Shown: positions 21,391 through 34,878 of the stretch, in pieces | Layout: every line of letters starts with the position of its first letter | Numbering within the stretch: the stretch's first letter is position 1 | Virus record (IMG/VR): IMGVR_UViG_3300035145_000221 | Location: 1-34,878 of that record | Length of the DNA: 34,878 nucleotides | Direction: 5' to 3' (one strand) | DNA from: a virus | The notes under the pieces: model-generated | The model's input: the letters and a program-made list of their open reading frames with translations, nothing else | The model's database searches: none | Told to the model about the DNA's origin: nothing | Made by a program: the position numbers and the translations under genes

Positions 21391-22184
21391 ACATCAGTAC
21401 CTCTGGTAGGACTATAATTCTTGGAATCGTAGAGCATTTCTGTAGTCTCCGTAAACCCAAAGTCGTCGCCAGGATCGGCGTTGATTGGGTCTGGAACAAC
21501 AGTGTAACGCATCTCTCTCTTCGCAGTTGCCCTGTCGGTATCTGCATAGTAATCGACCTGAACCTTGCGAATGAGACCGTCGGTGCTCTCCGCAATAGGA
21601 CCGAACAGGTAGGTCTTTGCTGTAAAATTGAGAGTATATGTTAGAACCCTTCTTGTAGAAAAGTCTCCTTCATATTCATCGGTAAATGAAATATTGTCTA
21701 GTACGACAGGGATATCTCTCTTCTCCCCGATAGATTCAACCAGGTCTAGAGAAACATTAAAGGATGGTTGGAAGAAAGGAAGAATTTGTTCAACAATTTG
21801 AAGAGCGTCTTCATTCAACTTTGTAAGAATGTTTAACTCAAAGTTGACATTATATGGTACGGGCAAGAATACTTTCTTTACATTGTCACCATCGACTGCC
21901 TTAAACGACCTGGTAACACTAGTTTTTCTTGCTGGATCATATTGCAATCCTGTCATCTCAAATGACATTCTAGGCAGAGTGATTGCAACTGCCTTTGCTA
22001 ACTCTTGCTGTTGTCTAATTTTTGCAAGGAACTTAGATCTTGGTCCATATGCCAATGGCACCTTTGTATCACTGATTACGCCACCCTGTCTATCCTCATG
22101 TTGGATGTGGATGTCATTAAACAAAGTTCCGAAAGCAACAACTGTCTTTCTAAGAACTTCGTGATAAAAATATGTACCTAACAT
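21387..22184 (-). CDS. 15: gp15, tail completion and sheath stabiliser protein
   Basis: A 265-residue protein (T4 gp15: 272 aa). The N-terminus LGTYFYHEVLRKTVVAFGTLFNDIHIQHED and the following KVPLAYGPRSKFLAK match the gp15 family. The middle has VPYNVNFELNILTKLNEDALQIVEQILPFFQPSFNV, a strongly conserved element, and later YTLNFTAKTYLFGP. A hexamer of gp15 caps the finished tail and joins it to gp14 of the neck. It overlaps gene 14 as TGATG and gene 16 as ATGA, so neck, tail completion and packaging genes are translated together. Confidence 0.95.
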   Translation of the reverse strand: MLGTYFYHEVLRKTVVAFGTLFNDIHIQHEDRQGGVISDTKVPLAYGPRSKFLAKIRQQQELAKAVAITLPRMSFEMTGLQYDPARKTSVTRSFKAVDGDNVKKVFLPVPYNVNFELNILTKLNEDALQIVEQILPFFQPSFNVSLDLVESIGEKRDIPVVLDNISFTDEYEGDFSTRRVLTYTLNFTAKTYLFGPIAESTDGLIRKVQVDYYADTDRATAKREMRYTVVPDPINADPGDDFGFTETTEMLYDSKNYSPTRGTDV

Positions 22185-23629
22185 CAGAATGTACCAAAGG
22201 GATTAGTTTCAGTGAAATCTAAAAGATTATCTGCCTCTGCTTCTATTTCCTCATTAGAGAAATAATCATCAGCAAATGGTGCAGTATCGTTGTCAGAATA
22301 TGAGAAGACTTGATATCTAGCAGAAGATGCTGTGCCAGTAATGAATTCACCAGGCAAGAATGCACCAGTATTTATTGATATCTGCAGTTGCCTATTGGCA
22401 AGATCCCACTTCTTGACATAACCTTCCGTACCAGAAATAGATCCAACCACTCTCTCATTACCGAAGTATGTTCCTACTCCAGCATTCAATGGACCAGAGA
22501 TTGTAACTGTCGGAGTACCTTCATATCCAGCACCAGCGTTGAGGATAAGAATGTTTTGGAGTTCGTCCCCATCCAATACTGCTCGTGCAGTTGCCTGAAC
22601 CTGACCCGATTTAGTTCCTACAGTTGCACCAGTTGTGCCAATGCCAACATCAGATGGATGCTGTACGGTAATCGTTGGAGGACTTACATAGTTAAATCCA
22701 GGTTGTGTAATTCTAATAGATGTAATACCACTATTAGTAATGGATGCAGTTGCAGCAGCACCTGCTCCAGGACCACCGAATGTAAATGATGGTGGTTCCG
22801 TATATGCAAAACCAGGGTTACCAATTGCTAAGAAATCTACTGCCTGCAAGTTACCAATAGATGTGGTAAATGCAACCACAGCACCTAGGGCACTTGTAAC
22901 GCCAGCAGGAGACCTTGAGACAGTTACAATAGGTGGAGAGGTATACCCGAAACCATCATCATTGAGGAAGACCTCTTGGAGAGCACCTGTGAGGGCGAAT
23001 CCATCGACAACAGCAGTGGATGTAGATCCAATTCCTGCAACGGTAACTGTCGTGATATAACCTTCTTCTGATAGTCTGTCGTCGATTGCAGGGATATTTG
23101 TATCGATAATCTCGTCCTGAAGGCGGAAGAGTTCGCACTGCAATTCGTAAATATAATTTTTACCCAACTGATAGAATGGGTTCTCAAACTCTACATGCTT
23201 AATCTCAAAAAGTCTTTCACCTAGGGGGAACCAGATAAGATCTCCCTCCTTAGGTCTTGTAGAGAATATAATATCACCATCTTCTGCACCTTGTAAATTT
23301 GTAGAGTTGAAGATAAACGGTGCAATCAGATCTTCATATTTTTCTCTAGAAACTGTAAGTGTCAGCTCATTCTGCAGATTAATGCCAAATTTTGTCATGA
23401 TATCACTGCCCTTGGCATAACCCTCATAATTGTTGAGGTATGCTTCCATGGCAAAGTTATCGTTGAACTTGGAAGACTCAACCTCTCCAAGAACATCATC
23501 TGTAGTAATTAATTTTCTAGGAATATAAACGATCTCTTGCCCAAACATCGAAAGATGTTCGTCGATCAGAGACTGAACTAGTCTCTGCTCATCAGGCGAT
23601 CCGTGAAGAAAGAATGGATTTAAGGGCAT
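22184..23629 (-). CDS. 14: gp14, neck protein with inserted GY-repeat region
   Basis: A 481-residue protein, against 256 in T4. The first 170 residues (FFLHGSPDEQRLVQSLIDEHLSMFGQEIVYIPRK..., GKNYIYELQCELFRLQDEIIDT) are clear gp14, as is the C-terminal part from YVKKWDLANRQLQIS to DFTETNPFGTF. Between about 180 and 400 lie at least four units of a beta-repeat, each with G(F/A)GY or GFNY, then PP, then a (V/F)TV or ITV strand and Gly/Ala-rich loops. The pattern is of the sort seen in large phage structural proteins. gp14 with gp13 seals the filled head and joins the tail. The insert would project from the neck. Confidence 0.93.
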   Translation of the reverse strand: MPLNPFFLHGSPDEQRLVQSLIDEHLSMFGQEIVYIPRKLITTDDVLGEVESSKFNDNFAMEAYLNNYEGYAKGSDIMTKFGINLQNELTLTVSREKYEDLIAPFIFNSTNLQGAEDGDIIFSTRPKEGDLIWFPLGERLFEIKHVEFENPFYQLGKNYIYELQCELFRLQDEIIDTNIPAIDDRLSEEGYITTVTVAGIGSTSTAVVDGFALTGALQEVFLNDDGFGYTSPPIVTVSRSPAGVTSALGAVVAFTTSIGNLQAVDFLAIGNPGFAYTEPPSFTFGGPGAGAAATASITNSGITSIRITQPGFNYVSPPTITVQHPSDVGIGTTGATVGTKSGQVQATARAVLDGDELQNILILNAGAGYEGTPTVTISGPLNAGVGTYFGNERVVGSISGTEGYVKKWDLANRQLQISINTGAFLPGEFITGTASSARYQVFSYSDNDTAPFADDYFSNEEIEAEADNLLDFTETNPFGTF

Positions 23630-25191
23630 TATCCTATCATGTCAAGGGGTGGAATTTCATAAGTAGAGAGCATCTTATCTTCGATCTGCTGCAACTCTTG
23701 CACAGCATCTTCGTAGATTTGTCTGCCATTTAATTCAATACCTCCAGGGAGTTTAACTCCTTGGAACTTGATGAGGTTTTGACCCCACTGCTTCTTAACC
23801 CTAGATGTAAAATATCTCTTAAGGAAAGAATCATTATAAACACCTGCATAGTTAGCAGGATCCATGATTCTGTAACATTCAATAATTACATATGTTCCTG
23901 ATGCTGCGCTGGACCAATCAATGTCTAGGTATAATCTATTGTTTCTTTTGTTATATCTAACCTGCTTTGAGGTTGTGAGAAGAAAATCAATATCCTCAAG
24001 ATATGTTTTAGTCATCGCATAGTTCATTAAACCTTGATATCCAAGATCAAATGCTAAGTCATTCAGGAATAACTGATATTTGATACTGAACATGCCACTG
24101 CTGACATTGCTATTGTCAAATGTATGAACCCTCTCGATACCCAGAACTGAATCTGGTACGGTCAGATAGTTTGTATTCTCTTCAAAACTCTGAACTTCAC
24201 CACCACCAGAACTGGTCAAAGTTCCATCTGTGGGGAATGCAGAAGTTGGTGCAGTGAAATTGCTAGTGTATCTTTCTTTTGCTGTAATTCTTACATCATC
24301 ATAAATTGCATCAGTGGATCTACCATCAAGATACTTTGGTCTGGAGTTCAAATACAAATATCTATCAGTACGATTTGGAATATTATTATCAATAACTTGA
24401 TTAGAAGATGTACTGCTACTTTCAGTTCCGTTTAAGAAGAAGTGAATACTACCATCAGATGCTCTTCTAGTTACTGCGACATGAACCCAATTCTGAATAA
24501 TTTGTCCAGTGGTATAAGACCCTAAACCAGTACCGTATGTAGAACTGTGAAGGGTATTGTCAGTATTATGCCATCTGAAATTAATAGTTCCGCTTTGGTT
24601 ATCTACAAGCAGTCCGAAGATTCCGCTGGCGAAAGAAGCATTGGTCTTTGAAAATAAAGCACCACCACTGGGACTGCTGTCGATATAGATCCAGGTTTCA
24701 AAAGTCCACTCACCAGTAAAGTCATATGCAGCATTATGACCATAATAAAGATTCTGATTAGTAGTAAATCTACCAGCTTTTCCAAACTTTACTGGAGATG
24801 CTACGATGTCTGGAGAACCACCAAGAGTCGGAGTGTTTCCTACAGGAGAGTAATCTGTAAAGTCAGCATCAAAAGTATGTCTGACAATTACATCATCCCA
24901 GTTTGAATCCCCACTAATGGTAACAGTTCCTCCATCGCCTGTACTAGAAGTAGTGATACCAAGAGACTCACCACCACCCCTTGCTCTGCCTCTGCTGATG
25001 TCATTGTCGGTAAGTTTGTACTTTAAAAAAACTCTCTCAACACCGTCAAAGTGTCTTTCGTAGAATAACTGCAGGGAGTCATCCAAAGCATCATCTACTT
25101 GTTCATCGGCGACATTGATCTCCAAGACAGGATACCCAAGTTGCCTGAGGGCATAATCCTTGAGTTCCTGTCTAGTTGTTGGTTTAGCCAT
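23629..25191 (-). CDS. 13: gp13, neck protein carrying a LamG-like lectin insertion
   Basis: A 520-residue protein, against 309 in T4. Residues 1-66 (TTRQELKDYALRQLGYPVLEINVADEQVDDALDDSLQLFYERHFDGV) and about 333-520 (VPDSVLGIERVHTF, FLKRYFTSRVKKQWGQNLIKFQGV, GRQIYEDAVQELQQIEDKM) are the conserved gp13 neck protein. Between them, about 95-320, is a jelly-roll of the LamG/concanavalin type: FTGEWTFETWIYID, FGLLVDN, NWVHVAVTRRASDGSIHFFLNG and DDVRITAKERYTSNFTAP. Removing the insert leaves about 255 residues. The domain resembles the one in the giant protein upstream, including the closing FTAPT motif. It probably binds glycans on the host or decorates the neck. Confidence 0.92.
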   Translation of the reverse strand: MAKPTTRQELKDYALRQLGYPVLEINVADEQVDDALDDSLQLFYERHFDGVERVFLKYKLTDNDISRGRARGGGESLGITTSSTGDGGTVTISGDSNWDDVIVRHTFDADFTDYSPVGNTPTLGGSPDIVASPVKFGKAGRFTTNQNLYYGHNAAYDFTGEWTFETWIYIDSSPSGGALFSKTNASFASGIFGLLVDNQSGTINFRWHNTDNTLHSSTYGTGLGSYTTGQIIQNWVHVAVTRRASDGSIHFFLNGTESSSTSSNQVIDNNIPNRTDRYLYLNSRPKYLDGRSTDAIYDDVRITAKERYTSNFTAPTSAFPTDGTLTSSGGGEVQSFEENTNYLTVPDSVLGIERVHTFDNSNVSSGMFSIKYQLFLNDLAFDLGYQGLMNYAMTKTYLEDIDFLLTTSKQVRYNKRNNRLYLDIDWSSAASGTYVIIECYRIMDPANYAGVYNDSFLKRYFTSRVKKQWGQNLIKFQGVKLPGGIELNGRQIYEDAVQELQQIEDKMLSTYEIPPLDMIG

Positions 25192-28100
25192 CAGAAGAAT
25201 CCTCCATCGATCGAATCAGTCCAGGTTGGAATTCCATTTGCGTTCGTAGTGAGGACATAGTTTGATGTAGTGAGGAATCCTACTGTGCTAGCAGAACTTA
25301 CCAGTCTTCCATCATTCTCAAAGTAACCAACGCCGTTAGGACCACTATATCCGATTCCGTTGATTCCACCCTGATCAGATCTGTAGTACAGACCATCACG
25401 GAAGGTGCCATAACCGATTACGCTCAGATTGTCTTGGACAGTTACCTGACCAGCAGCAGAGTCGAGAACCAGTTCGCCACTAAGAGTATTTATTTTAGTG
25501 TTAGAAGAACCAGCACCAATCGTAATACTGGAGATCGTAGATACACCAGTTACTTTCAGGTTGTTGGTGGTCGTTACACCAGAGATAAACAGGTTGCGAC
25601 CGTTGACCTCATCGTATACAACATCGCCGATGATGTTCAGGTTACCAGCGATATAAACATCGCTCTCGAAAGTGGAGATTCCAACGAAGGTCGAAAGACC
25701 AGTTACCTTCAGGTTAGTGTTGGTGGTGTTGGTAGTAAATCCAGTTTCGATTCTGGCAGTTGTGATTGCGAAGTCAGTAGCAAGACCAGCGGTGATCTTG
25801 GCATCTTGAATGTCAGCATCGACAACATCTAAGCGATTAGCGGTTACTACACCAGCGGTTGCAACAATAGAAGAACCAATGCTGATCTGACCCTTATAGA
25901 TGCCGTTATCGGAGAAGGTAACGATACCCAACATCTCCGAACCAGCGGCGGTGAGGATCAGTCTTGCGCCGTCGCCATTAGCAAACCGATCACCGTAGAT
26001 TAACTTCAGAGTTTCATTATCTACAGTCATCACATCGCTGGCACCAAGACCAGTCTGGATGCTCAGGAAGTTGCTTCTGACTCTCAGTCTGCTAAAAGTT
26101 GCCTCAGAGTTGAAGTGCTCAATAGTGGTATGACCTCTATTGAAGAACTGCTCGCCATCAGCGTGCTGAATAGTCAGATCATCATCACTACCGATCTTGA
26201 TCAGAACATTGTCTGGGAAGGTCAGCGTGCTGTTGATTCCGATTGGGGAATTGATCGTTGCAGATCCATCTCCAACAACTTGACCAACAGTGAAGTTGGT
26301 AACGAGACCAACTGCTGCTCTCAGAGTGTTGATACCAACGATATGCTCGAATGAAGCAATATCGGTTACTGTCAGACCTGCACCAACGGTGAGGTTAGAC
26401 ATGAATGTAGCAACACCAGTGATCTTGAGATCTTCCAGTAAGGTAGATCCAAGAACATCAACTCTTGCTCTAGGAGCGGCAGTAGCAATACCCAGCAACT
26501 GACCGTTGGTGAGGCGCATACCCTCAACAGCATCAGTGTTGAAGCGGATAGTACCGTCAGAACCAGAGTCATCGAGAGCGATGGAGGTGTCACCCTTCTG
26601 GAAAGCATCCAATTGGATGACCGTAGCAGTCAGGATACCCAGGACATTGACATCACCAGTGATGTTGATATCACCTGCACCAGCGGGGTCGATATTGATA
26701 TCGCCTGTAGTGGACTCAATGTTGTTACCAGCAATTTGGATGTTACCAAATGTGCCGCTAGTAGGTGTGATTGTGCTGGCATCAGTCCCGTCAGTAATCT
26801 GGAGGGAAGACAGTGCCTGCAGACTGGTTACCTGCTGCGAGAATGCAACGGTGCCAGACTCTTGATCAACATAGAATGCATCACCGACTCTAAAGTCGCC
26901 CTTGTGGTCGATGCTGACGAAGGAGACATCACCGTTATTGGTCTCAGTAACCTCATTTGCCTGAATTGCCAGGTTGGGATCGTTGGAGAAATCTCCACCA
27001 GAACCAACATGGTTGAAGTTGAGAGCAAACAGTCTCAGAGTTACGCCATCGCCATCAGCAATGACGCCCTTCTGACCATACTCAACAGCACAACCAACGG
27101 AGCGCATGTCCGCACCGAACTCACTGTAATCAGCAAGGATAACCTTGGTTGCAGTTCCGATACCGCCACCAGATTGAGTGATGCGGATATCCTGGTTACG
27201 GATTACATTATCAGTTGTTGTGCTAATGCCATTTGAACCATTAAAGTTCAGCAGCAATGCAGTATCTTTATCGCCAGTCAGTTCGGCAGTAGGAGCAGTA
27301 AATGCTGCAGTGTACTTAGCAACACCGTATTCAACTCTGAAGTCATCGATCCAACCTGTTACCGAGTTGGATGTGCCATCGAAGTCAGCACCGATGACCA
27401 GACCCTTAGATGCACCGTAGTCAGTTGTATCAGAGGTCTTAATGCCTCTCTGAGTACCGTCAACGAACAGTCTAGTATTTGTACCCTCTCTAGCGAGTGC
27501 ATAGTGCTTCCAGACGCCTGTAGCGATGCCTGCGCCAGAACCAGTGATAGCGGTGGTAGTACCAACGCGCATATCAACTTCACCAGCAGCACGGAAGGCA
27601 AGACTAATACCTTCAGCATCCGTACCATCAGTTCTTAAGTCGAAGAGAGTTGCGCTGCTCAGACCAGTTGTATTTGCGTATGCCCAGAATTCAATCGTGA
27701 AGTCTGTATTGGTGCCGAAACCTAGATCACCGCTAGAAGGAACGCTGATAGAATCATTTGTTCCATCGAGAGCGAGTGACGCGCTACCAAACTTCTTAAC
27801 TGCAGTATCTAACTGAGCGTTGCCATTGAAGGTAACTGCCTTAGCAGATCTCGCGTTGAGAACTTCAAAACCAGTTTGCTTACCAGTTACACCAAGATAT
27901 GTTCCATCATACGATGCAACAACAGCAGTCGCAACACCAGTAGTTCCGTCAGTATCGAAGACGGTAATCGTGTTTCCTACACCAACAGTTGTGATGCCAG
28001 TCAATCTCAGTCTGGTTTCACCAGCAGATGACAGACCAACTGTTCCAGATGTACCTTTGATCGCCTCAGAAGCGAAGTAGGAGAAGCAGTTCAGATACTC

Positions 28101-31100
28101 AATACGAGCACCGTTGGTCATCTCCAGACCTTTACCGCCAGGAACGATGAAGGTACATTCGTTGAATAAGAATCCTGCCTCAAGAGATCCTGATGCTACC
28201 TCAGAACCATCAACAAAGGCACCACCACCAGAGATGTAAGAAGATGGTGGAGAATCTGCAGATCCATATCCATATGGATCGCTAGCAGTAATATTGCTAC
28301 CTTTGTTGAATACTGTTACACGCTGGACATAAGGAGATCTAGATGTGATCGCAATGCCAGGAGCATAACGGAACGCCCAACCTTGGTTACCAGCAGTATC
28401 GAAGTATTGACCAGCAATAGTGACATCTTCAACGACTGATCTGTCGTTCATCAAGAAGCAGTCCTTCTGCCTGGTGGCAGTAGTAGGCATGATCTTGGTG
28501 GCACGGAGACCAGCACCCTTGACTGTCAGACCAGCTGGAACAGTCAGTGGGAAGGTTTCTTCATAAACACCAGCAGCGATGTTCAGAACATCATTAACAC
28601 CGATGTTGGAGATCTGCGACAGAGCGTATGCAATCGTCCTGTAAGGTCTCTCTGGTGTTCTGCCGCGAGAGGCATCACCATCGTCAACACCATTGGTAGA
28701 AACATACCATGTATCAAGTTTGGCATTGATAGTAGCAATACCGATCTGAGCAGGTTCACGCCAAGTGACTGTTCCTGCAGGATCAGTGCTCAGGATATGC
28801 TGAGTGTTCAGACCAACAACACCAGTGGAGTCATACAGCGAGGTGATGAAACCAGAGGTAATAAATGCGGAGGTGGCAATACCGACCTGAGTTACCAGGT
28901 TAGTAATCGCAAAGTCAGTAGCAAGACCAGCAGTGATCTTAGCGTCTTCAATGTCAGCGTTGGTGAAGTCAACATTAACGATTGTGGCAGCAGTACCAAC
29001 GATATCGGTAATGATACCAGCAGTAATCTTGACATCTCTAGCATCCAGGGTCTCAATATCGACCGTGGTGATGGTGGCATAAGTGCCAACCTGAGATGTG
29101 ATAATGCCAGCAGTGATCTTGGCATTAACAATGTCACCTTCAGTGACATCGATGGTTGTAATCGTAGCAGCAGTACCAACAATATCGGTAACCGCAATGC
29201 CAGTAATGTTTACATTGAGAGCATCAAGATTCTCAACATCAATTGTTGTGATTGTGGCATAAGTGCCAACCAGTGATGTTACAACACCAGCGGTGATCTT
29301 TGCGTTAACAATGTCACCTTCTGTAGCATCAATCGTTGTGATAGTTGCTGCAGTACCGACGATATCAGTAATGATACCAGCAGTGATCTTGACATCTCTG
29401 AGATCAGCAGTCTCAGTGTCAAATGTAGTGATCGTAGCGTAGGTGCCAACCAGAGAGGTTACGACACCAGCAGTGATCTTAGCGTTGACGATATCACCTT
29501 CAGTGACATCAATCGTCGTGATGGTAGCAGCAGTACCAACAATGTCGGTAATGATTCCAGCAGTGATCTTGACATCTCTAGCATCGAGAGTCTCAATATC
29601 AACTGTATTGATAGTTGCATAGGTGCCTACCTGACTGGTGATAATACCAGCAGTGATCTTGGCATCCAGGATATCAGCAGCATCGAGGTGTGCGGTGCCA
29701 TCGATGTAGATATCTCTCCACTCACGATCGGTAGTACCGATGTCCAGAGTGTCATCACTGACAGGAGTGAACTTGAGATTAGACTCCCATGCCTCTCTAG
29801 GTTGGTCATATAGGAAGGTCTTGTCAGTCGTACCCTTAACAATGATACCGCCGTTGTCGGCTGTGGCATCAGCGTGGGAACCTGTAGAACTGAAACCAAG
29901 TTCAATGTTCTTATCGGTGATTTGAACAACCGTGCTTTGAACGAAACTCGTGGTTCCATTTACAGTCAGGTCGCCCATGACGGTCATAGCACCACCGACT
30001 CTGACATCATCTTGGAAGTCAGCGTCTTGGAAGGTTACATATGTACCGACAAGTGATGTAACCAGACCAGTGGTAACCTTGACATCAACAGCGTCAAGAT
30101 TATTGATGTCTACCGTAGAAATGGTGGCATATGTGCCAACCATGCTAGTAACAACACCAGCGGTAATCTTGGCAAAGTAACCGTCGAAGTAGTTGGTGTC
30201 TACCGTGTTGATTGTAGCAGCAGTACCAACAATGTCGGTAATAATACCAGCAGTAATCTTGACATCTCTGAGGTCAGCGATCTCAGTATCAAATGTCGTG
30301 ATTGTGGCGTAAGTACCAACATAACTGGTTACGACACCTGCCGTGATCTTCGCATACTCGATGTCTGCATCAGCGAAGTCAGCGTTCGTAATAGTCGCTG
30401 CAGCACCAGTCTGGTATGTAATAATACCAGTATAGATCTTAGCGTTGGTGATAGCAAAATCAGTTGCTAAACCAGCGGTTACCTTAATGTCCTCAACACC
30501 AATATCATTGATGTCAATTTGAGGAATTGTCGCAACACCAGAGACCGTGAGGTCGCCGTTTACAGCGAGAAGAGCATCTGGTGCAGTTGTGCCGATTCCA
30601 ACCCAACCGTCACTGTTACCACTAATCCACTTAGTTCCGCCAGAACCAATGACTAACTGATTATCACCTTCAGTCTTAGCAGCTTCTTGCTGGAAACCAA
30701 TGATGACATTGTTGTCACCAGATGTTGTCTGTCCAGAAGATTGACCAATAGAGATATTGTTGCTACCAGATGCATCAATACCAGAAGATGCACCAATGGC
30801 AATGTTATCGCTGCCCTCTACATTGTAAAGTGTATAAGCACCAATAGCGATGTTATCGCTTTGACTTGTGGAGATACCTGCTCCCCACAGTGCCTGTTGA
30901 CCAATGGCAATATTTCTTTCGTGATCTTCTCTACCAGTGGTAGTGAGAATACCTGCCTTAACTACAATGAAACCAAACGAACCAGTAAGACCCAGAGTAG
31001 GATCGTTGGAGACATAGATGGCATCATGCTTTGCAGTCAGAAGACCTACATTGTCAGTACCTTTTACAGTGAACTGAGTTCCTTGCAGTTTCTGTAAGAA

Positions 31101-32264
31101 ACCTTCTGATGCTGTAGCAAAGTTGAAACTTAATCCACCAGTAACAGCACCGTTAACCGTAACCAGATCGGTCAGGTTGTTCAGAGCAATCGCAAAGTCA
31201 CCATCACTAACATAAGTGGAGATGCCAGACTCTGTAGAACCATATACTCTATACGCATATGGTGGCGAATTGAGTGATGTAGCGTCAGAGAAGGAGATTC
31301 CGCTAGCTGTGCCAGTAGAACCAACAGAAATAATATTTTGAGAACCTAAATCTTGACCTGCCTTATCACCAATGTAGATGTTATAAGAACCCTCTGCCTG
31401 TTGACCAGCAAAGGCACCTAAGAAGATATTGGACTCTGCCTGTACCTGTCCACCAAGTTGGAAGGAACTGTTACCAATGGCGATATTTCTCTTGGTAAGA
31501 GAGGTCTGACCAACACCTTGACCAGAGAAGTTACCAATGAAAATACCCTGACGATCATTACCGTCGGTTTCGGGTTCGCCTGCCTCGCGACCAATTTTAA
31601 TTAATTGGGTTCTGAAGTCAATATTGTCTTCAATCGTGGCAATACCAGTAACCGTAAGGTTTTTGGTAGTTGTAGCATGACTTACATTGACTTCAATAAA
31701 GTTGCCACTAGCACTGGTAATGGCATTGTCAAGGGTTACATTGACACCGAAGAAGTTAGTAACAACACCTGTTTGTACACGAGCAAGATTAATATCTGCA
31801 TCGTTAGTTACATTCAGATCATATGCAGTAGCAATACCCGTGATGTTCCAATTTCGGGCATTTGCTTCATCATATGTGATGTCGCCAGTAACATTGAAGT
31901 TGCCACCAACAGTCAGGTCACCCTGTACTGTAGCACCAGAACCTACAGTAAGGTTTTGTGCAATATCAAATTTAGTTGCTCTTGCCTGGGAGTCTAAGAC
32001 AAGAACTTTCGATGCTTCTGGCGTGCCAAAAGTTACTGGGTTTTCTGGGAATAGACTGGTGTAATATTCACCACCAATTGGAATTGGTGAGAAAGTTGGT
32101 CCACTAGGGTGACCAATGTATAGTTTCTTATATGACTTACCAGCACCTACATTAGTTTCGTCGTAGGTATAAATTAATTCACCAAAACTTACGCCTGTTC
32201 CTACTGGCGCGACATTAGGCGGTGATGTACCCCTAGTCCTTTTTAGGAGAATAATAGCGGCCAT
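25191..32264 (-). CDS. Giant modular tail-fibre/adhesin-like virion protein (2357 aa)
   Basis: No single family covers it. Visible modules in order: an N-terminal domain (1-120) with VNVTGDITYD strands, perhaps for virion attachment; YadA-like head repeats with the N-I-(A/S)-I-G signature at about 255-310 and 450-540; a shaft of about 15 units of 30 residues (about 595-1120); a right-handed beta-helix start (WYVSTNGVDDGD, TIAYALSQI, GVYEETFPL, about 1180-1400) like DUF1565/pectate-lyase-type helices; a LamG-like jelly-roll (GSASLALDGTNDSI, FTIEFWAYA, VWKHYALAREGTNTRLFVDG, about 1480-1680); then more strands and shaft-like units to the end. It has no enzyme motif. Its site between baseplate-type genes and gene 13, and its make-up, point to a host-contact fibre, probably trimeric. 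The start overlaps the 70-aa gene as TAATG. Confidence 0.88.
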   Translation of the reverse strand: MAAIILLKRTRGTSPPNVAPVGTGVSFGELIYTYDETNVGAGKSYKKLYIGHPSGPTFSPIPIGGEYYTSLFPENPVTFGTPEASKVLVLDSQARATKFDIAQNLTVGSGATVQGDLTVGGNFNVTGDITYDEANARNWNITGIATAYDLNVTNDADINLARVQTGVVTNFFGVNVTLDNAITSASGNFIEVNVSHATTTKNLTVTGIATIEDNIDFRTQLIKIGREAGEPETDGNDRQGIFIGNFSGQGVGQTSLTKRNIAIGNSSFQLGGQVQAESNIFLGAFAGQQAEGSYNIYIGDKAGQDLGSQNIISVGSTGTASGISFSDATSLNSPPYAYRVYGSTESGISTYVSDGDFAIALNNLTDLVTVNGAVTGGLSFNFATASEGFLQKLQGTQFTVKGTDNVGLLTAKHDAIYVSNDPTLGLTGSFGFIVVKAGILTTTGREDHERNIAIGQQALWGAGISTSQSDNIAIGAYTLYNVEGSDNIAIGASSGIDASGSNNISIGQSSGQTTSGDNNVIIGFQQEAAKTEGDNQLVIGSGGTKWISGNSDGWVGIGTTAPDALLAVNGDLTVSGVATIPQIDINDIGVEDIKVTAGLATDFAITNAKIYTGIITYQTGAAATITNADFADADIEYAKITAGVVTSYVGTYATITTFDTEIADLRDVKITAGIITDIVGTAATINTVDTNYFDGYFAKITAGVVTSMVGTYATISTVDINNLDAVDVKVTTGLVTSLVGTYVTFQDADFQDDVRVGGAMTVMGDLTVNGTTSFVQSTVVQITDKNIELGFSSTGSHADATADNGGIIVKGTTDKTFLYDQPREAWESNLKFTPVSDDTLDIGTTDREWRDIYIDGTAHLDAADILDAKITAGIITSQVGTYATINTVDIETLDARDVKITAGIITDIVGTAATITTIDVTEGDIVNAKITAGVVTSLVGTYATITTFDTETADLRDVKITAGIITDIVGTAATITTIDATEGDIVNAKITAGVVTSLVGTYATITTIDVENLDALNVNITGIAVTDIVGTAATITTIDVTEGDIVNAKITAGIITSQVGTYATITTVDIETLDARDVKITAGIITDIVGTAATIVNVDFTNADIEDAKITAGLATDFAITNLVTQVGIATSAFITSGFITSLYDSTGVVGLNTQHILSTDPAGTVTWREPAQIGIATINAKLDTWYVSTNGVDDGDASRGRTPERPYRTIAYALSQISNIGVNDVLNIAAGVYEETFPLTVPAGLTVKGAGLRATKIMPTTATRQKDCFLMNDRSVVEDVTIAGQYFDTAGNQGWAFRYAPGIAITSRSPYVQRVTVFNKGSNITASDPYGYGSADSPPSSYISGGGAFVDGSEVASGSLEAGFLFNECTFIVPGGKGLEMTNGARIEYLNCFSYFASEAIKGTSGTVGLSSAGETRLRLTGITTVGVGNTITVFDTDGTTGVATAVVASYDGTYLGVTGKQTGFEVLNARSAKAVTFNGNAQLDTAVKKFGSASLALDGTNDSISVPSSGDLGFGTNTDFTIEFWAYANTTGLSSATLFDLRTDGTDAEGISLAFRAAGEVDMRVGTTTAITGSGAGIATGVWKHYALAREGTNTRLFVDGTQRGIKTSDTTDYGASKGLVIGADFDGTSNSVTGWIDDFRVEYGVAKYTAAFTAPTAELTGDKDTALLLNFNGSNGISTTTDNVIRNQDIRITQSGGGIGTATKVILADYSEFGADMRSVGCAVEYGQKGVIADGDGVTLRLFALNFNHVGSGGDFSNDPNLAIQANEVTETNNGDVSFVSIDHKGDFRVGDAFYVDQESGTVAFSQQVTSLQALSSLQITDGTDASTITPTSGTFGNIQIAGNNIESTTGDINIDPAGAGDINITGDVNVLGILTATVIQLDAFQKGDTSIALDDSGSDGTIRFNTDAVEGMRLTNGQLLGIATAAPRARVDVLGSTLLEDLKITGVATFMSNLTVGAGLTVTDIASFEHIVGINTLRAAVGLVTNFTVGQVVGDGSATINSPIGINSTLTFPDNVLIKIGSDDDLTIQHADGEQFFNRGHTTIEHFNSEATFSRLRVRSNFLSIQTGLGASDVMTVDNETLKLIYGDRFANGDGARLILTAAGSEMLGIVTFSDNGIYKGQISIGSSIVATAGVVTANRLDVVDADIQDAKITAGLATDFAITTARIETGFTTNTTNTNLKVTGLSTFVGISTFESDVYIAGNLNIIGDVVYDEVNGRNLFISGVTTTNNLKVTGVSTISSITIGAGSSNTKINTLSGELVLDSAAGQVTVQDNLSVIGYGTFRDGLYYRSDQGGINGIGYSGPNGVGYFENDGRLVSSASTVGFLTTSNYVLTTNANGIPTWTDSIDGGFF
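28890..30480 (-). repeat. 90-bp tandem repeat shaft, two alternating unit types
   Basis: About 15 diverged copies of a 30-codon unit lie in frame within the giant gene, with one non-repeat insertion in the middle (about 29660-30030). Type A units read AKITAGVVTSLVGTYATI and type B units VKITAGIITDIVGTAATI, and they mostly alternate, giving a 180-bp higher-order period. Copies are near identical at protein level in places, which favours gain or loss by recombination. Confidence 0.88.
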
Positions 32265-32476
32265 TAGAATTCACCTCCGTCAATAAGGGCGGCGGGCAAT
32301 TGAGTTTGGGCGACGAATTTGGCAGTTGCGGAGTTATAAACCAGGAAGCTACCGTTGGTGAGGTTGGCGGCATCTACATCGGAAAGCAAAACTAACTTTC
32401 CGCCACCGCCCCCACCAAGTGCTCCACTGGCAATAACCTTTACCTGGCTACCAGTACCTACTCTTAAAGATGGCAT
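32264..32476 (-). CDS. Small Gly-rich structural-looking protein
   Basis: A 70-residue protein with a GALGGGGGGKLVLLSD stretch and a C-terminal NGSFLVYNSATAKFVAQTQLPAALIDGGEF. The end resembles the ends of fibre repeats (W/L-hydrophobic-DGGFF) in the giant protein, whose own C-terminus is SIDGGFF. It may be a cap, linker or short fibre component. It is coupled to both neighbours by TAATG overlaps. No family is recognised. Confidence 0.82.
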   Translation of the reverse strand: MPSLRVGTGSQVKVIASGALGGGGGGKLVLLSDVDAANLTNGSFLVYNSATAKFVAQTQLPAALIDGGEF

Positions 32477-32814
32477 TACCTTGTGACTCCTGCTCTGACT
32501 AGAACCATTCCTTCAACAACTTTATACTTCGTTCCAGTATTGTCAGTCAAAACTACATCATATACATACCGACCTGGTTTAATATCAGTTGTGAGAGACG
32601 AAGCGAGAGAGACCGTAATCTCCCCCTCCAAAGGACTTGATACTGTAGATGCAAAAGATACAGCGGTGCTGCTACCAGCCCACTTCCTGAATTGCGATGC
32701 TACACTAAAGTTTGAAAGATTCAGAACAGTGTTGTTATCATTATCACCTAGTGAAAATAAATGTTCAAAGTCTACGCCTGTCTCAATCTGCAAATTAGCA
32801 ACATAAACTGCCAT
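32476..32814 (-). CDS. Small beta-rich virion protein
   Basis: A 112-residue protein built of strands: MAVYVANLQIETGVDFEHLF, LSNFSVASQFRKW, EGEITVSLAS, KPGRYVYDVVLTD and KYKVVEGMVLVRAGVTR. The plan (a bound ligand-like linear opening, then an Ig-like set of strands ending in a VxEGxVxVxxxVT pattern) is like the N-terminal BppU/Ig-type domains of phage receptor-binding proteins. It is probably a baseplate or fibre adaptor. The evidence is pattern and context only. A CTAAATA motif lies 26 bases upstream. Confidence 0.83.
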   Translation of the reverse strand: MAVYVANLQIETGVDFEHLFSLGDNDNNTVLNLSNFSVASQFRKWAGSSTAVSFASTVSSPLEGEITVSLASSLTTDIKPGRYVYDVVLTDNTGTKYKVVEGMVLVRAGVTR

Positions 32815-33024: not shown

Positions 33025-33230
33025 AATTTGTCTGCAATGTGTGCCAATAAATTTTTGATCTCGGAAATGTCTTTCTTCATTCCCTCAATCTCTTCTCTTT
33101 CTTGTTTTCTTTTCTTTTTTGCTGTTAGATAAGCATGGTAAGCGGAGCTATCATCATTGACGATAGCCCCTGTTGCTTCATCACGGTAGAGACCATCTTT
33201 GCCTGCTACCTTTATGTATCTCTCGTCCAT
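33021..33230 (-). CDS. Small conserved protein with C-terminal coiled coil
   Basis: A 69-residue protein. The N-terminal part (MDERYIKVAGKDGLYRDEATGAIVNDDSSAYHAYLTAKKKRK) has the look of a small conserved T4-like phage protein, followed by a basic linker and a helix with heptads (IEGMKKDISEIKNLLAHIADKL). It is coupled by TAATG to the large protein upstream and by ATGA to the 63-aa gene. It is possibly a virion accessory or chaperone for the large protein; not established. Confidence 0.8.
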   Translation of the reverse strand: MDERYIKVAGKDGLYRDEATGAIVNDDSSAYHAYLTAKKKRKQEREEIEGMKKDISEIKNLLAHIADKL

Positions 33231-34878
33231 TATGCAAGTGCGACTGCTCTGATGTTCTTAATAACAGGTGGTCTTGCCTGATTTTCACCACTCATTACAA
33301 TCTTGATGAGGAAACCACTGAATGGTTCAATATCGTTGATTGTATATTGATACTCTCTATAAGAAGTATCTGGTGCAATAAACTTATCAGGATGACCATC
33401 GTTATTGGATGGGTCGATAGGTACATCACCAAATCCATCACCATCAGTATCAATCATGTTATCGTATCCAGGGAACAACTCGAATGTTGGATCTTCTTCG
33501 CTGGAGTCTGGTCTGATAACACCGTACAGAACTCTAAAGTCTGAACCAGGTGGTCTTACAGCATCAACAACAACTCTTAGAGAGGTTGCAGGTTGCTTCA
33601 GACTGATTACCTTAGAGAGATAGTAAGATGCGTGTGGATCTCTAACAACTGCCTTTGCTCTAGCATCGGTAGCGTAGTTATCAATAGGATCGTTGATTCT
33701 GTAAGAATACAACTGCATCGACATACTATCTAGGCACAACATTGGAGAGTTAAAGAAATCTCCATTATTGTTGAAAGTCAATCTTGCGTTGATGGACTTA
33801 TTCCTAAAGAGACTACCAAGTTGATTTGTCTCATTAATTTCAGAACAAATCATTCTGGTTTCTTCTAAAGTAGTTTGCTCATTCAGCAAGAAACTTTCAT
33901 AACCAAGATCAACGAACGATGACTCATTACCATCAACACTGGTTCCTGTAACAGTTCTAACAACGAAATCAACACTATCATCAACACCAGATGCGGTGAC
34001 ATCAATTAGAGGTCTAATCGCATTAAACTGGAGATTCTTGGATGCAACCACTTCAGAACCACCCATATGAGCATTGTTCGTGAAGGAAAGTTGTGGGAAA
34101 TTCAGAGTAGTGTTGTCAGTTGCTCTACCCTCTCTATCAATCTTGATCAGGTAGCTGTCCATCTGCTTATCCAAGTTTTCAACATCATGAGTTGTGTTGA
34201 TCTTGGTCAGAGATACGCCGTTCGCTTCATACTTCTGGATTCTAGAACCATTGGTGTGGTTAATTGCAGCAGTGTTGTTCGTGCCGCGTACAATGCCACC
34301 GAGGGTGTTAATACCAACGCTGGTGTAAGATACGATCTCATTATTGATAATTGCAAATCCAGTATTGGCAGCACTCACCAATACACCTTCAAATCTATCA
34401 AATCCAGTAGTGCTAGCGACAGAGATTGTTGTTGTAGATGATGTAACATCTGTAGAGACTTCGGTAGGAAGCGCATCAGATTCAACACCAGTGATTTCAA
34501 CTTTATTGCCGAAACCATACATGCCGTGGTTGTAAGAGGATACCCTGGCATATTCGCCAGTAAACTCAGAACCAGTTGCATCGTAACTGAGTAAATCAAG
34601 AGTAGTGTCGATAACAGACCCACTGTCATGGGTATATGTCAGATCACCACCAGCAGTAAACTCCTGTGCCTGAATATCTGTCAGGTAAAGAGTGTCAACT
34701 CCAGCAATAGTGTTAATACCGATTCTGGCACCAACTCCACTACCACCCATGTCAGCAGTTACAAGACCGACAACATCGCCGACTTTATATCCACTACCAG
34801 AAGAAGCGATAGATACCGCACTAATAGCAGAGACACCCATACCAACAGTGACATTAAGAGTCAGACCACTGCCTCTAC
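33230..34878 (-). CDS. Large baseplate/fibre-type virion protein, C-terminal part (5' end outside window)
   Basis: The frame is open to the last base of the window, with residues RGSGLTLNVTVG before the first internal ATG at 34840, so at least 549 residues are visible and the true start lies beyond. It contains GSGYKVGDVVGL-type beta-repeats like those inserted in gp14, a TTISVASTTGF segment and a RGTNNTAAINHTNG loop. The conserved C-terminal region (DARAKAVVRDPHASYYLSKVISL, SLRVVVDAVRPPGSDFRVLYGVI, FSGFLIKIVMSG) ends in IKNIRAVALA. Near residue 485 from its end side, DTDGDGFGD looks like a calcium-binding thrombospondin-3/dockerin-type loop. Cyanophages have a large structural protein in this slot. 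The exact role is not clear. Confidence 0.85.
   Translation of the reverse strand, partial: RGSGLTLNVTVGMGVSAISAVSIASSGSGYKVGDVVGLVTADMGGSGVGARIGINTIAGVDTLYLTDIQAQEFTAGGDLTYTHDSGSVIDTTLDLLSYDATGSEFTGEYARVSSYNHGMYGFGNKVEITGVESDALPTEVSTDVTSSTTTISVASTTGFDRFEGVLVSAANTGFAIINNEIVSYTSVGINTLGGIVRGTNNTAAINHTNGSRIQKYEANGVSLTKINTTHDVENLDKQMDSYLIKIDREGRATDNTTLNFPQLSFTNNAHMGGSEVVASKNLQFNAIRPLIDVTASGVDDSVDFVVRTVTGTSVDGNESSFVDLGYESFLLNEQTTLEETRMICSEINETNQLGSLFRNKSINARLTFNNNGDFFNSPMLCLDSMSMQLYSYRINDPIDNYATDARAKAVVRDPHASYYLSKVISLKQPATSLRVVVDAVRPPGSDFRVLYGVIRPDSSEEDPTFELFPGYDNMIDTDGDGFGDVPIDPSNNDGHPDKFIAPDTSYREYQYTINDIEPFSGFLIKIVMSGENQARPPVIKNIRAVALA

Follow-up and report, generated by a model that had tools for sequence, protein, structure and literature searches.

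A giant candidate host-recognition fibre with a LamG domain nested in its predicted beta-helix in an uncultured T4-like phage

Described systems and the locus in the window

In cyano- and pelagimyophages, the interval from VrlC to gp14 has been described as a 'host recognition cluster', with a mean length of 34 kb in cyanomyophages and 45 kb in pelagimyophages according to the parts of that study used here (PMC7029224). In phage S-TIM4, the product of ORF108 was termed a 'YadA domain-containing structural protein', and it was mutated in all evolved populations, most of all in those evolved on Synechococcus WH8102. A cluster of changes spanning 120 bp in the same ORF was attributed by the authors to recombination with nearby regions of that genome, in the portion of the report on which we draw (PMC6224464).

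Here we examined a window of 34,878 nucleotides, by which we mean the whole stretch of DNA under study (positions 1 to 34,878 of the IMG/VR record IMGVR_UViG_3300035145_000221). The window represents part of a T4-like phage, with a major capsid protein sharing up to 75% identity with those of Synechococcus phages, and its structural genes lie on the minus strand (Table 1). An earlier note on this DNA had placed an open reading frame of 2357 residues at 25191-32264 and named no strand; the frame is real and of exactly that length, and is read from 32264 down to 25191. This gene, the fibre gene in what follows, lies within a tightly packed run of structural genes, and its start and stop are each shared with the adjacent gene. 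Upstream of it come, in order, VrlC, two short ORFs, a 112-aa protein and a 70-aa protein, and downstream gp13, gp14 and gp15. As in the clusters described for T4-like marine phages, the fibre gene falls between VrlC and the neck gene gp14; this stretch measures about 9.6 kb in the window. The order VrlC, small ORFs, giant gene, gp13/gp14 is the same in S-TIM4 and in a related 180-kb record (G001), in which the stretch from VrlC to gp13/gp14 likewise contains this single giant gene. The product of gp14 (22184-23629, minus strand) has a long extension at about residues 190-390 with repeated GxGYxxPPxVxI-type segments, and this extension matches the virion structural families phrog_701 and phrog_19630. 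Matches to the late promoter motif (TATAAATA) numbered 2 in the window against a chance mean of 1.27, and NCBIfam returned no family for any of the 5 proteins tried.

Table 1. Coordinates of the fibre gene, its neighbours and its parts in the window
Feature	Coordinates	Strand
VrlC-like protein, C-terminal part, cut at window end	33230..34840	-
112-aa protein, L-shaped tail fibre assembly family (phrog_3304)	32476..32814	-
70-aa protein ending DGGEF, overlaps fibre start; matches phrog_13853	32264..32476	-
Giant candidate host-recognition fibre gene, 2357 aa	25191..32264	-
N-terminal module, residues 1-80, conserved, common to P-HM1 PHM1_093	32025..32264	-
NxxIG repeat block I, residues 226-320	31305..31589	-
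Inter-block region, residues 321-440, with the greatest divergence between groups in the N-terminal part	30945..31304	-
NxxIG repeat block II, residues 441-560	30585..30944	-
Repeat shaft, residues 561-1159, 30-residue period; contains a tree break	28788..30584	-
Beta-helix (predicted), first part, residues 1182-1467	27864..28721	-
LamG inserted in helix, residues 1468-1690 (Pfam 1500-1644)	27195..27863	-
Helix resumed, then conserved region, residues 1691-1930	26475..27194	-
Variable late module, residues 1931-2210	25635..26474	-
C-terminal module, residues 2211-2357, ends DGGFF; profile 2280-2357 common to PHM1_093	25194..25634	-
DGGFF codons with embedded GGAGG before gp13 start	25194..25208	-
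gp13 neck protein with LamG insertion at about residues 88-334	23629..25191	-

ORF108 of S-TIM4 occupies the same slot, continuing through gp13 and gp14 into gp15, belongs to the same size class and is called structural. However, it carries neither NxxIG motifs nor a LamG, its N-terminus is of the Pfam Mtd_N type, and it has no detectable BLASTP similarity to the fibre, so the evidence gathered on it transfers by position only. The statement in the earlier note that the protein lacks an obvious T4 counterpart holds for its sequence but not for its slot, which is known as the host recognition cluster in the cited part of the literature (PMC7029224) and in which ORF108 is an equivalent.

Full-length, co-linear homologues of the fibre were found on 27 metagenomic contigs (loci L003-L081 were drawn with six peptide seeds). 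One of them (L003) is identical and the others are 65-72% identical; with the window included, they form 15 groups at 95%. L003 is identical in its flanking genes too and looks like the same virus recovered from another sample. In a collection of isolate phages, 370 records match the fibre and 0/370 cover 80% of the query, while the first 640 residues are matched by 63 phage records, none over 80%, with about 30% identity among the matches listed. Photosystem reaction-centre genes are present in 3 of 12 related records, with two copies in G001, and for this reason the fibre-bearing group very likely infects cyanobacteria.

Position and literature indicate that this is probably a chimeric host-recognising virion protein, and we consider it likely that, in an uncultured T4-like cyanophage, the gene supplies the host recognition cluster with its principal adhesin or fibre. 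We infer its presence on the virion, a trimeric state, sugar binding and a role in host range. The match of the neighbouring 112-aa protein to a fibre-assembly family speaks for this reading, as do the slot in common with ORF108, the LamG, the predicted tailspike-type helix and the reaction-centre genes of related records. Against it stand the PHROGs name of the fibre, a baseplate wedge subunit, and the good conservation of its LamG (group means 65-86% identity), a domain that one might expect to vary under a contest over host range. The earlier proposal that the protein is the best candidate for a host-range determinant stands within the window, but it is not the sole candidate in such a genome, as G001 carries further long fibre-like ORFs (e.g., 1746, 1647, 1226, and 908 aa).

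The fibre and the adjacent 70-aa protein both end in DGGxF. A DGGx[FWY] terminus was found in 133 of 9879 ORFs in the window and the other loci, and the pattern occurs 141 times overall, ends included. In 126/133 of these ORFs, the following start codon begins 2 bases inside the stop, and the first glycine codon of the terminus is GGA in 115/133 and GGA or GGG in 132/133; in the fibre gene overall, GGA accounts for 38 of 278 glycine codons. A docking tag was considered and rejected, since an embedded GGAGG ribosome-binding site for the overlapping next gene explains most cases. Judging from codons, the terminus would mostly reflect a translation constraint on protein C-termini. One P-HM1 case without overlap retains the DGGxF residues but not GGAGG.

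Repeat blocks, predicted helix and nested LamG

The N-terminal part of the fibre contains two separate blocks of NxxIG motifs, as had been claimed, at residues 260, 279 and 295 and at residues 451, 471, 487, 503 and 519. These 8 matches compare with a mean of 0.8 and a maximum of 5 in 2000 shuffles, and their spacing is mostly 16. Homologues covering the region have 3 to 8 matches each, except for L050, which has none. An AlphaFold model of residues 1-640, where a YadA-type head would form a left-handed beta-roll, was poor (mean pLDDT 36), with short strands that coincide with the NxxIG motifs. YadA heads have NxxIG-like repeats about 16 residues apart, and their head-plus-shaft plan resembles that of the fibre. 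Motif, spacing and plan would suit an adhesin of the bacterial trimeric autotransporter class that a phage had captured, an origin that we regard as extremely improbable. Specifically, Pfam YadA_head gave no match in the window, in 0/12 related records and, at E<=10, in 0/23 homologous N-terminal regions; a PDB profile search of head block II returned nothing significant (best E 0.93); and a Pfam scan of the whole fibre at E<=1 revealed no anchor family that could mark a C-terminal membrane anchor. The C-terminus of the fibre is a module common to a phage protein (PHM1_093), and its virion gene context also sets it apart from YadA-type adhesins. The 'YadA-like' label of the earlier note, and with it the link to bacterial trimeric autotransporters, thus found no counterpart in the Pfam and PDB profiles; what the label describes is a motif and its spacing.

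The shaft that had been proposed after the repeat blocks is present, with a 30-residue period and DNA repeats spaced 90/180 nt. The beta-helix was modelled at block pLDDT 62-88 over residues about 1180-1320, and tailspike beta-helices are among the structural matches, so that the right-handed fold typical of tailspikes is present by prediction. The lectin-type domain is matched by Pfam Laminin_G_3 (E 3e-17) and by PDB chain 4qvs (E 2e-13). In the model of residues 1160-2357 (mean pLDDT 55), block values reach 66-90 over about 1480-1680, and ConA-like domains align with a Z of about 18 and an rmsd of 2.4-2.8 over 173-181 residues. The fibre therefore contains a domain of carbohydrate-binding type. 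Beyond the tailspikes named below, most PDB fold matches are generic ConA-like domains and uninformative on function; the list of fold matches covers mainly model residues 280-525, and families missing from it may still match elsewhere.

Helix and lectin domain had been described as consecutive. Both are there, but the LamG is inserted into the helix, as follows from the alignment with a protein of Synechococcus phage DSL-LC03 (WJZ47902.1) that has the same helix on both sides of the LamG site and another N-terminus. Its residues 58-332 match fibre residues 1184-1465 (43%) and its residues 343-634 match 1691-1993 (32%); relative to the fibre it lacks about 225 residues corresponding to the LamG, with both seams visible in the alignment, and Pfam detected no LamG in this protein. 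The Fri1 tailspike gp49 likewise aligns to the fibre model from 1183 to 1765, spanning the LamG. The nesting of a sugar-binding-type LamG within the helix of a fibre is a new detail, as literature titles and opening abstracts yielded no description of a LamG nested in this helix or of a LamG in gp13.

The helix of the fibre model is matched by CBA120 TSP2 (6w4q, 5w6p; E 4e-8) and Fri1 gp49 (6c72; Z 15.5, rmsd 3.0 over 207 residues), and its lectin fold by the tailspike of cyanopodophage Pan3 (9vyh); all three belong to other phage types, match in fold only and are identified by their entry titles. Together with many invariant acidic residues in the helix, these matches could be taken to mean a tailspike-type depolymerase that would cut host surface polysaccharide, with the LamG as its sugar-holding module. 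We think this quite improbable: the match is one of fold, the CBA120 alignment has an rmsd over 15, and no active site was found in the helix. Furthermore, phage fibres commonly have beta-helices without activity. In the preferred reading of a host-recognition fibre, the conserved N- and C-terminal modules would attach the fibre and terminate it, its length would come from the repeat blocks together with the shaft of 30-residue repeats, probably as a trimer, and the right-handed beta-helix with its inserted LamG would contact cell-surface sugar.

Modules that are united in one protein in the window lie in separate genes in P-HM1. Of these, PHM1_093 carries the N- and C-terminal modules (profile domain E 5e-4 and 5e-5, from a search against the ORFs of 13 loci only), a relation that for the N-terminus was shown by the profile and not by BLASTP, and PHM1_095, labelled gp7, carries the beta-helix and LamG core with 41-46% identity to the fibre. 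In Synechococcus phage ACG-2014f, the core is found in two paralogues labelled as baseplate wedge subunits, namely gp268, which matches fibre residues about 1103-2292 (43%) and differs at both termini, and gp269, which matches residues 1143-1926 (50%). PHROGs families of baseplate wedge subunits match residues 931-2073 of the fibre with E down to 8e-271. Taken at face value, the labels of these families and of the ACG-2014f and P-HM1 relatives would make the fibre a wedge component without direct host contact, which we judge highly unlikely. The gp7-like protein before gp8 in G001 (4050 aa) has no BLASTP match to the fibre, a 3356-aa part of it matches phrog_2885, which is not among the fibre matches, and the presence of two proteins labelled gp7 in P-HM1 points to a label carried by a shared module. 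Because the G001 gp7-like protein is a different one, the 'baseplate wedge' label has probably spread via the shared helix-LamG core. The two P-HM1 proteins labelled gp7/baseplate wedge (L002, NC_015280; 46129-59469 and 70324-77601) are different from each other, and ACG-2014f (L001) likewise has two proteins in one genome labelled gp7 or baseplate wedge; the second gp7 label in such genomes seems to come from the shared core. We conclude that the fibre is of a known kind in a new arrangement, in which the nested and optional LamGs may merit a specialist's attention.

Mosaic origin and variation of the fibre

Trees of fibre segments included the window and 15 of the 27 full-length homologues, near-copies being mostly left out; the gp14+gp15 tree included 13 homologues and the window, and the trees of gp13 and of a 135-aa downstream ORF fewer. 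In the core (residues 1160-1930), the window is nested inside group B with a support of 100/100, and the AU test rejects placing it with A (p 0.0013, an optimistic value because groups A and B were chosen after the identities had been seen). In contrast, the heads (181-560) place the window outside both A and B+C, and so do the flanking genes VrlC, gp14+gp15, gp13 (core) and the small ORFs upstream. The two segments flanking the LamG (1160-1320 and 1691-1930) place it near or in B, segment 1321-1475 does so less firmly, segment 721-870 sides with B and C, and both the C-terminus (2211-2357) and the 135-aa ORF tend towards B. In the late module (1975-2165), the window goes with five of the six A members, and the trees of the LamG alone and of residues 871-1159 do not settle the conflict between lineages. 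Since the placements differ by segment, breaks are indicated within the repeat shaft and beyond residue 1930, and these phylogenies give signs that the helix block may have crossed between virus lineages. An alternative derived from identities, in which A-type heads had been swapped onto a B-type backbone, was dropped after the flanking-gene trees reversed it.

The core of L044 stands apart from the other A members, and the 1975-2165 module of this locus forms a long odd branch, so L044 is probably another recombinant. A second helix insert of about 110 residues, located at residue 1220, was found in each of the seven A and C homologues inspected (L024, L030, L035, L044, L053, L041 and L054). 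The window lacks it, and segment lengths indicate that group B and the C member L018 lack it as well.

Identity to the window is highest in residues 1160-1930 and lowest in 321-440 and 1931-2210. The dN/dS ratio was 0.06-0.16 in all nine fibre regions, and no positive selection on the LamG or the heads was seen in the 21 pairs compared, which came from six close groups. The heads and one late module thus vary most, yet every region is under purifying selection. The low dN/dS throughout suggests that variation arises by module replacement and insertion and not by fast point change. The fibre family would then evolve through events such as the core block crossing lineages and the insertion of the LamG and the 110-residue block in the helix, as opposed to point diversification.

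LamG on the neck and recognition of cyanobacteria

The neck protein gp13 has 520 residues in the window owing to an in-frame insertion at a single site, about 245 residues long, that contains a LamG (Pfam E 2e-13; seams aligned). Among the matches listed, 7/120 loci with both gp13 ends carry this LamG, a proportion biased towards carriers since three of the six seeds for these loci lie inside the insert. The carriers are the window, L003 and L028 (these three being one virus), L010, L043, L044 and L082, which amount to 5 distinct viruses in two lineages. The LamG is present in L010 but absent from L017, which is at least 95% identical to it in the fibre, and it is also absent from L027, whose fibre part is 94% identical to that of the window. 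In the phage collection, 1127 records match this gp13 and none covers 80%. The LamGs of fibre and gp13 are distant relatives (25%, E 3e-4). As a tentative possibility, which we hold to be somewhat doubtful, LamG may be a mobile insert in exposed loops of virion scaffolds (helix and gp13), with the helix core moving between lineages by recombination in the shaft.

That the fibre gene lies directly before gp13, and that gp13 itself can carry a LamG, could also indicate a neck fibre (whisker) attached at gp13 instead of a baseplate fibre, which would help arrange the tail fibres or make a weak first contact. T4 encodes its whisker protein wac directly before gp13. A further precedent is cyanophage A-1(L), which has neck fibres with a distal carbohydrate-binding module; this module, however, did not bind its host according to the part of the report cited here (PMC10966104). 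The upstream neighbours of the fibre gene are a fibre-assembly-type protein and VrlC, which is treated as a baseplate component in the section of the study we use (PMC7029224), and its sequence showed no link to whisker proteins. We therefore consider a neck fibre unlikely, and retain the reading of a main host-recognition fibre.

Genome sequences make it difficult to tell how Synechococcus and Prochlorococcus are recognised by marine T4-like cyanophages, since the fibre genes have great length, a mosaic make-up and misleading labels. The present example distinguishes a core that can be transferred from the ends that serve attachment and places the lectin-type domain as an insertion in the helix, and it suggests that the labels 'baseplate wedge' and 'YadA' have spread through shared modules or motifs. 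It also provides defined pieces for work on sugar binding, namely the helix-LamG of residues 1182-1766 and the gp13 LamG. If LamG is indeed mobile, one particle would bear lectins at both fibre and neck, and if the helix core moves between lineages, sugar recognition could be reset while the remaining fibre follows the genome. If the LamG is optional on the neck, whether necks help in capturing cells would become testable by binding assays.
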